From positions 254,001 to 318,000 of the forward strand of contig NZ_JAYKGJ010000002.1 of assembly GCF_036860695.1 (NCBI RefSeq): 64,000 nucleotides of DNA. The letters are read 5' to 3'. Source of the DNA: Rosettibacter firmus. GTDB lineage: Bacteria; Bacteroidota; Ignavibacteria; Ignavibacteriales; Melioribacteraceae. Positions within the stretch are counted from its first letter, which is position 1, and each line of letters begins with the position of its first letter. The position numbers were made by a program, and so were the translations under genes. Below, one piece after another: positions 43,116-45,786 of this stretch. Under the pieces are notes generated by a model. The model ran no database searches and was not told the origin of the DNA. It was given only the letters and a program-made list of their open reading frames with translations.

Positions 43116-43849
43116 TGAAAAGCTGGTATAAAGAATGGTTTGAATCACAGGATTATCTTAAAGTTTATAACCATCGTGATTTTGAAGAAGCTCAAAAGTT
43201 CTCCGATCTAATTCTGTCCGTAACAAATATTAAAAAAGGTTCAAGAATACTTGATGCAGCATGTGGTTCTGGTAGACATGCAATTTATTTTGCACTCAAA
43301 GGTTATGATGTGTATGGATTTGATTTGAGTAGAAATTTATTGAATATAGCAAAAGAAAATTCGATGCTTTTTAATACAAAATTAAATTTGATTTTAGCTG
43401 ATATAAGAAAAATTTGTTTTAATAGTAATTTCGATTTAATTCTTAATTTATTTACAAGTTTTGGCTACTTTGAAACTGATGAAGAAAATTTTAGTTTTAT
43501 AAGAAGAGCTTATAATTTTTTAAATAAAAATGGTTATTATGTAATTGATTATTTTAATAAAACATATCTGGAAAATAATTTAGTACCACAATCAGAAAAA
43601 ATGATTGATGATACAAAGATTATAGAAAAAAGAAAAATTGTAGAAGATAGAGTAATAAAAGAGATAATTATTAAAAGCAATGAATCTGAGAAAAGATATT
43701 TTGAATCTGTCAAATTATATGAACCTGAGAGGATTATTAATGAATTTAAAACTACTGGTTATAGATTATTTAAAATGTGGGGAGATTATGACGGTCATGA
43801 TTTTAGTAAAAATGTTTCTCCAAGGATAATTTTATTTTTTCAAAAATGA
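43112..43849 (+). CDS. Class I SAM-dependent methyltransferase
   Basis: The likely start is the GTG overlapping the recR stop, with an ATG three bases on. The 245 residues have the SAM motif I ILDAACGSGRHAIYFALKG (about 46-64), then GFDLSRNLLNIA and LNLFTSFGYFE (motif IV region). It looks like a small-molecule or lipid/protein methyltransferase of the Methyltransf_25/11 kind. The substrate is not known. The final codon overlaps the lipoprotein start (ATGA). Confidence 0.8.
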   Translation: MMKSWYKEWFESQDYLKVYNHRDFEEAQKFSDLILSVTNIKKGSRILDAACGSGRHAIYFALKGYDVYGFDLSRNLLNIAKENSMLFNTKLNLILADIRKICFNSNFDLILNLFTSFGYFETDEENFSFIRRAYNFLNKNGYYVIDYFNKTYLENNLVPQSEKMIDDTKIIEKRKIVEDRVIKEIIIKSNESEKRYFESVKLYEPERIINEFKTTGYRLFKMWGDYDGHDFSKNVSPRIILFFQK

Positions 43850-44430
43850 GATATAAAAATTTTTATATAGTGAACTTATTAACTATAATACTAATTTCAT
43901 GTGATATATTTACAACCAGATCACCTGAAGTACCTGATAGACCGAGTTCAAATTTTTTAGCAGCTACTTCTCCCGAAATTCTTTTTAATAATTTCAAATC
44001 TTCAATTGAAGAAAAAGTTGTAGAAAATTATATAGCCTGTTTTGTCGATACGTCTTATCTAAAAAAGAAATATAATTTTATACCTGCTGTTGGTTCAACT
44101 GCATTGTATCCAATCTTAAATAATTGGTCAATAAATGAAGAAAAACAATACTTTTTAAATCTTGTTTCTAAATTACAACAGGGGAAAAATATTGAACTTA
44201 AACTTACAAATACACAGAAAAATATTTTTGGTGATAGTGCAATTTATTATTTTGATTATGAGTTAATTATAAATTCTAATAACCAGCTAATCGGTGGAAC
44301 ATTTAAGGGGACTGCACAATTCAAAATATTTTCAGATAATAGAGAACAATGGTCAATTGTAGAGTGGCAGGATATTAAAAAAGAAAATTATTTATGCTGG
44401 AGTGATTTAAAGGGGAGGACTTCCTATTAA
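43846..44430 (+). CDS. Small lipoprotein, first of a related pair
   Basis: The 194-residue protein opens with a lipoprotein signal (LLTIILISC; Cys19). The mature part (SPEILFNNFKSSIEEKVV, then CFVDTSYL, FGDSAIYYFDYELII and WSIVEWQDI) shares its order of features with the next gene product. I infer an NTF2/SnoaL-like cone fold for both. No function is recognised. It overlaps the methyltransferase gene, and the following gene appears to overlap its stop, so the group is co-translated. Confidence 0.7.
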   Translation: MRYKNFYIVNLLTIILISCDIFTTRSPEVPDRPSSNFLAATSPEILFNNFKSSIEEKVVENYIACFVDTSYLKKKYNFIPAVGSTALYPILNNWSINEEKQYFLNLVSKLQQGKNIELKLTNTQKNIFGDSAIYYFDYELIINSNNQLIGGTFKGTAQFKIFSDNREQWSIVEWQDIKKENYLCWSDLKGRTSY

Positions 44431-44920
44431 AAAATATTTATTCATATTGTTAGCAATTTTATTAAGTAGCTGTATTAATCCATTCGCACCTAAAATTGAT
44501 GAAGAATTAAGCAGTTCTCAAAGTTTGATAAGTGATTTGTCGAATGTAGAGGGAGTATTTAAAAATTTTCAGTATGCGTATACTTTTAAAGATACACTTA
44601 TTTATAGTCAACTTTTAGATAAGGACTTTACTTTTACTTATAGAGATTATAATATTGGTGCTGATGTTAGCTGGGGAAGAGATGAAGAAATGAGAGTTAC
44701 TTATGGATTGTTCCAGAATACACAGAGACTTGACTTAGTGTGGAATAATGTAATAATGATCAGTGGTGATTCCACACATGTAGTAAGAAGTTTTAATTTA
44801 ACTATTACTTTTAATCCAACTGATATAGTTTACATAGATGGTAAAGTAAATCTTGAATTAAAGAAAGATATTAATAATAAATGGAAAATAGTTCACTGGA
44901 TTGATGAATCAAATTTCTAA
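44426..44920 (+). CDS. Small lipoprotein, second of the pair, with likely ATT start
   Basis: In this frame the first standard start is TTG at 44447, but it would yield a signal without a charged N-terminus. Codon ATT at 44426, seven bases after GGAGG (44414-44418), gives MKKYLFILLAILLSSC, a textbook lipoprotein leader with Cys16. I therefore place the start there (164 residues). The mature part parallels the previous protein: VFKNFQYAYTFKDTLIYSQL, DFTFTY, SWGRDEEMRV, GDSTHVVRSFNL and WKIVHWIDE. Function is unknown. ftsX follows five bases later. Confidence 0.65.
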   Translation: MKKYLFILLAILLSSCINPFAPKIDEELSSSQSLISDLSNVEGVFKNFQYAYTFKDTLIYSQLLDKDFTFTYRDYNIGADVSWGRDEEMRVTYGLFQNTQRLDLVWNNVIMISGDSTHVVRSFNLTITFNPTDIVYIDGKVNLELKKDINNKWKIVHWIDESNF

Positions 44921-44925
44921 ACAAA

Positions 44926-45786
44926 ATGATTACTTTTTATTTCAAAGAAGCATTCAGGATATTGAAACGTTCACCATTTGCATCAATTGTAATAATTTCT
45001 ATTACTACAATAGCAATTTTAATGACAAGTTTTTCTATAATAGTTCTGCAATTATCCAATATATTATCACAAAAAATTAAAAAGAGTATTGAAATTACTG
45101 CTTTCCTGAACAATACAATTGATTCTTCTCGAATAAGTGCAATTCAAAATGAATTATTAGCACAACCGAATATTATGACTGTTAAGTTTATTAGCAAAGA
45201 AGATGCAATTCAAGAATTTATTAAAGATACAGGTGAAGATTTTAGAGATGTTCTAACAGAAAATCCTTTACCACCATCATTTATAATAAAATTTAAACCA
45301 GAAAAAATATCCTATGAGAACATTAACTACGAGATAAACAGAATTAGAAGCATTGCTGGAGTTTCAGAAGTAATTTATGATTATGATTTTATAGTAAAAA
45401 TTTTGAGATACCTGAAATCAGGTCAAATTCTGGTATATATATTTTCGATATTACTAATTTTACTTTCTATTTATTTAGTTTACACGCATAGCAGAATTCA
45501 AATAGAAGCAAATAAAAATCTGTATCAAACAATGAAATTAGTTGGAGCTAAACTTTCTACAATAAAAATTCCAATTGTTCTAAATGGAGTAATAATAGGT
45601 TTAATTTCAAGTATATTGTGCATTGGAATAAATTATATTATACAAATATTATTGATTAGTTTAATTAATAATATTAAATTTGATTTGGTAATTAAGGGCG
45701 CTTATTTGATTTCTTTTTCAGGCGGGATAATATTAGGAATATTAGGTAGTTATTTATCATTTAAAACAATTAATTTCTTTAACTGA
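44926..45786 (+). CDS. ftsX: Cell-division ABC-transporter permease-like protein FtsX
   Basis: The 286-residue protein has one N-terminal membrane helix (about 19-45) after EAFRILKRSPFA, then a large external domain (IEITAFLNN, VKFISKEDAIQEFIKDTG, NPLPPSFIIKF) and three C-terminal helices. This is the FtsX layout. FtsX with FtsE controls peptidoglycan hydrolases at the divisome. FtsE is not adjacent here, as in many Bacteroidetes relatives. The upstream lipoproteins may be its partners, which is only an inference. Confidence 0.88.
   Translation: MITFYFKEAFRILKRSPFASIVIISITTIAILMTSFSIIVLQLSNILSQKIKKSIEITAFLNNTIDSSRISAIQNELLAQPNIMTVKFISKEDAIQEFIKDTGEDFRDVLTENPLPPSFIIKFKPEKISYENINYEINRIRSIAGVSEVIYDYDFIVKILRYLKSGQILVYIFSILLILLSIYLVYTHSRIQIEANKNLYQTMKLVGAKLSTIKIPIVLNGVIIGLISSILCIGINYIIQILLISLINNIKFDLVIKGAYLISFSGGIILGILGSYLSFKTINFFN

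Follow-up and report, generated by a model that had tools for sequence, protein, structure and literature searches.

At positions 43846-44920 of the window, the 64-kb stretch of the Rosettibacter firmus genome that was analyzed, two tandem genes for NTF2-like lipoprotein paralogs precede ftsX, all on the forward strand. The upstream gene (43846..44430) ends in the stop TAA at 44428-44430, the downstream gene (44426..44920, stop TAA at 44918-44920) codes for a 164-residue protein, and ftsX follows at 44926..45786. A profile comparison of the upstream and downstream families (probability 95.4, E 2e-8) identifies the upstream gene, likewise predicted to encode a lipoprotein, as a diverged tandem paralog of its neighbor. 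The Pfam profile SnoaL_3 (PF13474) matched the downstream protein below its gathering cut-off (E 0.0022; 18.8 bits against 22). A Foldseek search with an AlphaFold2 model of this protein (pLDDT 75.8, pTM 0.63) returned 372 matches at E <=0.001, e.g. 3rob chain A (TMq 0.62), with identities to NTF2-like structures of 8-20% among the 50 of these 372 matches that were listed, and on this model the protein is predicted to adopt the NTF2-like alpha+beta fold and to belong to that superfamily. Its predicted fold thus matches that of the NTF2-like and SnoaL-like proteins, from which it differs in being a lipoprotein and in its sub-threshold SnoaL_3 score. Inspection of the leader and lipobox predicts that the downstream product is a bacterial lipoprotein; the lipobox cysteine (L-S-S-C, residue 16, codon 44471..44473) is invariant, and the mean column identity over the 29 aligned sequences is 66%. 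A homolog of the upstream gene is present in 89 of 90 orthologous loci and ftsX in 88 of 90, and the lipoprotein pair possibly has an envelope-related role.

The boundary between the two lipoprotein genes reads AAAGGGGAGGACTTCCTATTAAAAAATAT. A Shine-Dalgarno (SD) sequence, GGGGAGG (44412..44418, with GGAGG at 44414-44418), lies within the 3' end of the upstream gene and is followed, after a 7-nt spacer (44419-44425), by an ATT at 44426..44428, whose final T at 44428 doubles as the T of the upstream TAA, giving the five-base overlap ATTAA (44426..44430). The original prediction of an ATT start at 44426, seven bases past GGAGG and overlapping the previous stop, is confirmed in these particulars. 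An in-frame TAA at 44408..44410 closes the downstream frame five codons 5' of the ATT, and between this stop and a TTG at 44447..44449 the frame has no ATG, GTG or TTG. The product initiated at ATT would be I/M-KKYLFILLAILLSSC-INPFAP..., and inspection together with a count of lysines and arginines bears out the lipoprotein leader that had been read from it, with a basic n-region, a hydrophobic core and the lipobox cysteine. The duplex of GGGGAGG with an assumed anti-SD has a computed energy of -11.1 kcal/mol; a search for 16S rRNA in the assembly itself found none, and in the two of four relatives tried from which a 16S sequence was obtained it ends in GGATCACCTCCTTTCT, the standard anti-SD. 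The predicted RNA structure at the junction is not more stable than that of shuffled sequences (z 0.57 and 1.44). The segment GGGGAGGACTTCCTA (44412-44427) could fold into a small hairpin that covers the SD and whose matching arm is mostly absent from the relatives inspected.

We found the downstream gene in 90 of 97 genomes searched, comprising this genome and relatives of the same order, and a wider search, over 391 genomes of the class, recovered it in 372. All 90 best loci were read and classified by a fixed rule based on the actual stop of the upstream homolog, which returned 59 loci with ATT in a 5-nt overlap, 10 with TTG in a 4-nt TTGA overlap and 21 with neither. Two of the latter (L070, L075) carry ATTAA in the same geometry, the upstream reading being interrupted farther up, and one locus (L029) was lost to a contig edge. 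Hence the exact ATT 5-nt overlap occurs in 61 of 89 readable loci, that of the window included, and is missing from 28. The remaining 19 loci were assigned by hand, resulting in ATG in six, TTG in one, a doubtful TTG in one, a contig edge in one, ATT with an 8-nt overlap in two (L068, L084), ATC with an 8-nt overlap in two (L043, L087) and a non-overlapping ATT in one (L061), with five (L019, L048, L063, L069, L083) set aside without a start type. A second collection, of named relatives including Melioribacter, Stygiobacter and Ignavibacterium, comprised the best 80 of 284 named loci, 53 of which match loci already counted at every position of the 300 nt compared; these were scored through the upstream frame, as ATT followed by a lysine codon always spells ATTAA. 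The 27 further loci yielded 21 ATT overlaps, 2 TTGA overlaps and 4 others, bringing the ATT overlap to 82 of 116 loci. One of the 21 (L196) has an extra ATG two codons 3' of the ATT and may start there instead, and Stygiobacter electus 09-Me has the ATT overlap and lacks any canonical codon from the in-frame stop to the lipobox. The comparison with orthologs that had been proposed as a check thus finds the same near-cognate codon conserved at this position in most readable loci of both collections.

The region between the upstream in-frame stop and the lipobox offers little else as a start. In 24 of the 90 loci it contains no ATG, GTG or TTG, and an in-frame stop lies at most six codons 5' of the ATT in 49 of the 59 rule-classified loci. 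Leaders counted from the ATT are 12-20 residues long and carry a lysine or arginine within residues 2-6 in 59 of 61 ATT loci, a count inflated by the overlaps seen, in which codon 2 must begin with AA or AG and so favors Lys, Arg, Asn or Ser. A canonical codon between ATT and the cysteine is present in 33 of these loci, is followed by a lysine or arginine in the next five residues in none (0/33), and would give a leader of at most 12 residues in 32 of the 33; no usable canonical start is thus found in place of the ATT. An SD-like motif of at least 4 bases precedes the start-type codon in 63 of 65 ATT rows, 11 of 11 TTG rows and 0 of 6 ATG rows, in a test that accepts any codon of the given type 10-27 codons before the cysteine and that counts among its positive ATT rows L063, a locus set aside without a start type. 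Other lineages have TTG in TTGA (10/90) or a hand-assigned ATG (6/90) near the same place, both of them established start codons. In the control gene ftsX, a canonical codon lies within six codons of the aligned start in all 85 judged loci, a further 3 of its 88 matches having begun too late for judging.

These data also bear on the two objections foreseen in the original prediction. A sequencing error of ATG to ATT, such as the assembly might contain, or a decayed gene, has practically negligible probability, for the same ATT recurs in too many genomes and the protein is conserved to the column identity given above. The alternative start at TTG 44447, a permitted codon in the correct frame, is extremely improbable: it is preceded by no SD motif, its leader MLAILLSSC contains no basic residue, consistent with the positive N-terminus originally said to be lacking, and in two genomes of the same genus the aligned codon is TTT and TTA, with a TTG one codon later in the former. 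The same holds for downstream canonical starts in general, which are largely refuted by the 28 of 61 ATT loci that have none between the ATT and the cysteine. Sequence comparison thus supports the ATT as the start codon with high confidence, along with its geometry, the depth of its conservation and its SD.

The offset at this junction, in which the third base of the start is the first base of the stop, fits only codons ending in T. Accordingly, ATG, GTG and TTG are incapable of a 5-nt overlap, and the ATT and the overlap explain each other because the geometry admits T-ending codons only. The first two bases of the ATT are, in turn, the last two of the final codon of the upstream gene, which in the 68 loci with the stop in phase is TAT in 53, AAT in 6, TAC in 2, AAC in 1 and another codon in 6. 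If kinship between loci is ignored, the 62 NAY codons among them end in T in 59 cases and in C in 3, against an expected NAC share of about 24% (13.9/59) derived from the upstream gene at each of the 59 loci classified by the rule. This retention of the synonymous T follows the downstream ATT rather than the upstream protein, and conservation of the upstream C-terminal residue is disfavored as its cause. Across 84 rows (L019, L029, L048, L063, L069 and L083 being left out), overlapping starts are near-cognate in 65 and canonical in 10 and separated starts near-cognate in 1 and canonical in 8 (Fisher p 8e-6), and both this link and that between ATG and a missing SD comprise 2 to 5 independent contrasts each, for which a sign test is not significant.

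To place these states in a history we used a tree of 109 mature proteins (89 from the order and 20 chosen from the class), obtained by a quick search. All 68 ATT rows fall within one 93-row clade (SH-aLRT 97), together with 17 canonical and 8 unlabelled rows, and 10 changes of start type suffice, versus a mean of 28 in shuffled data. Rooted outside the ATT clade, the best tree can be explained by a single gain of the ATT and about nine later losses; these losses are a property of that tree, because its well-supported branches force only one change and 41 of its 105 inner branches are open. Four of the class-level rows, members of one further family, also show an ATT overlapping TAA or TAG, while the other 16, labelled canonical, have a canonical codon in the leader, several of them in ATGA, GTGA or TTGA. 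The outgroup sequence CTATTGA (L239, L240, L244) already holds ATTGA, and the path may have led by a one-base frame change from TTGA to an ATTGA overlap, and then by one substitution to ATTAA.

Within the genome the site stands apart as far as sampled. A scan of both strands of the window and a further 400 kb of this genome (L250-L269), requiring two open frames of at least 80 codons, recovered 61 5-nt configurations of a T-ending codon with a stop, of which 11 have ATT. An SD-like motif accompanies 2 of these 11. Since an ATG precedes the one other than 44426 by two codons, the ATT at 44426 alone, within these 464 kb, combines a 5-nt overlap and an SD with the lack of any canonical start a short way upstream. 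A second scan, of 373 long ORFs in the 464 kb, found 12 in which a strong SD precedes ATT or ATA but no canonical start; besides 44426, each of these has a canonical codon near or, on our reading, lies inside a coding frame. A general rise of ATT starts was not found in the 464 kb, about 14% of the genome, and 44426 is a special site rather than a genome habit. A canonical start with an SD of at least 5 bases at 5-9 nt is present in just 74 of the 373 long ORFs; the genome thus seems poor in strong SDs, which makes the GGAGG before 44426 itself notable.

The reading we favor for the above observations is that the ATT is a weak start supplied with ribosomes by termination-reinitiation. The second of the tandem NTF2-like lipoproteins would begin at ATT 44426, where a ribosome that has terminated the first at TAA 44428-44430 would find itself beside the strong internal SD GGAGG and within reach of the ATT, and would re-initiate there with fMet-tRNA. 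The output of the second protein would consequently be in step with that of the first, but lower. The ATT would be retained because an ATG in its place would destroy the upstream stop, turning TAA into GAA, and escape to TTGA or to a free ATG would require a frame change or a new site. What we infer from this arrangement is initiation at the ATT, its coupling to the upstream gene through re-initiation, the reduced output and the cause of retention, as well as any control by initiation factor IF3, and we regard the account as a whole, of a start fed by termination-reinitiation and held by the shared stop base, as very probable. Against it count the 28 readable loci lacking the exact overlap, among them L019 and L083 with ACT, and the efficiency of ATT, put at about 0.3% of that of ATG (Hecht et al. 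2017, cited in PMC10666635). The start lies within the -8 to +6 nt of the upstream stop given in PMC10666635 for termination-reinitiation pairs, and with its -5 overlap and ATT it departs from the standard -4, -1 or -8 overlap with a canonical start; hence it is a variant rather than a standard member of that class. A programmed +1 frameshift close to the 3' end of the upstream gene, fusing both proteins without initiation at the ATT, would agree with the downstream frame being +1 to the upstream one and with the internal SD just 5', but it is highly improbable, as the fusion would bury the leader and the invariant lipobox cysteine, the 10 TTGA loci have a different frame relation, and a further 8 loci show canonical starts and no overlap between the genes.

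Retention through the shared base would explain the ATT in most loci. It does not explain the ATT or ATC starts in 8-nt overlaps (L068, L084, L043, L087) or the non-overlapping ATT of L061, so that a weak start may also be selected as such, e.g. for control by IF3. Seven loci have a likely ATT or ATC start in an 8-nt overlap (these four and L170, L186 and L189, the last three known from the listing of named loci), and near-cognate starts thus likely persist beyond the 5-nt geometry. Well-characterized non-canonical starts are few, infC, the gene for IF3, with its AUU or AUC start, being the usual example. We examined infC in 30 of 55 matching genomes of the order (L091-L120), three of which could not be read by the script; in 21 of the 27 readable loci no canonical codon precedes the conserved start region and the gene begins with ATC or ATT, and six have such a codon. 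Control as in infC would mean that IF3 rejects the AUU, that the ratio of the lipoproteins follows the IF3 level and that the overlap is secondary. The persistence of ATT or ATC where the stop has moved and the infC genes of this order are in keeping with this, as are two precedents, namely the reported repression by IF3 of the GTC start of Streptomyces sigR (PMC5472188) and a report that overexpressed IF3 lowers re-initiation. However, about nine lineages have swapped ATT for TTG or ATG on the best tree, which a required control would resist, the effect of IF3 on re-initiation is reportedly weaker when an SD is present, as at this junction, and such control is without a known physiological reason. 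We consider IF3 control unlikely as the primary explanation and retain the ATT start fed by termination-reinitiation and held by the shared base.

Both infC and sigR resemble the present case in having a conserved start outside the canonical set. infC is autoregulated by its own product, whereas the product here is an NTF2-like lipoprotein and the start of its gene overlaps an upstream stop. The sigR start, GTC in 32 of 34 species and GTT in the other two, likewise has a strong SD, and differs in its codon, in belonging to a regulator and in having IF3 control shown experimentally; the excerpts of PMC5472188 used here describe no 5-nt overlap. The -4 (ATGA) and -1 (TAATG) gene pairs, coupled by termination-reinitiation, that are treated by Huber et al. 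2023 (PMC10666635) share the operon logic and distance range of this junction but not its -5 overlap; a -4 pair, TTGA, is the main alternative state in this lipoprotein family. According to the portions of that survey considered here, canonical starts preclude a -5 overlap, an arrangement over 1,000 times less frequent than -4, and ATT could permit it. In the titles and abstract openings of the open-licence literature we found neither a conserved ATT start in Ignavibacteria nor a conserved -5 overlap.

The alignments thus point to two conserved features in combination, a near-cognate start and a stop-start overlap whose length is otherwise excluded. Most of the order, as sampled, would have preserved a non-canonical start in a gene outside the translation machinery, and in a natural 5-nt overlap that the large genome survey, in the portions cited, treats as excluded and that gene callers restricted to ATG, GTG and TTG cannot report. 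Two questions become testable: whether terminating ribosomes take AUU more readily than free 30S subunits do, and whether a poor start codon can be locked in through bases that it shares with a stop. As a more speculative extension, which we think doubtful, ATGA and TAATG might be joined by the ATTAA overlap as a third kind of stop-start coupler, maintained as a translational device: rejection of its near-cognate start by IF3 would set a low ratio of the two tandem lipoproteins, adjustable through IF3, and the device would have lasted while the order diverged. Two of the loci set aside, L019 and L083, keep the overlap but read ACT instead of ATT (ACTGA and ACTAA, respectively); the former has no convincing alternative start and the latter perhaps uses a GTG.
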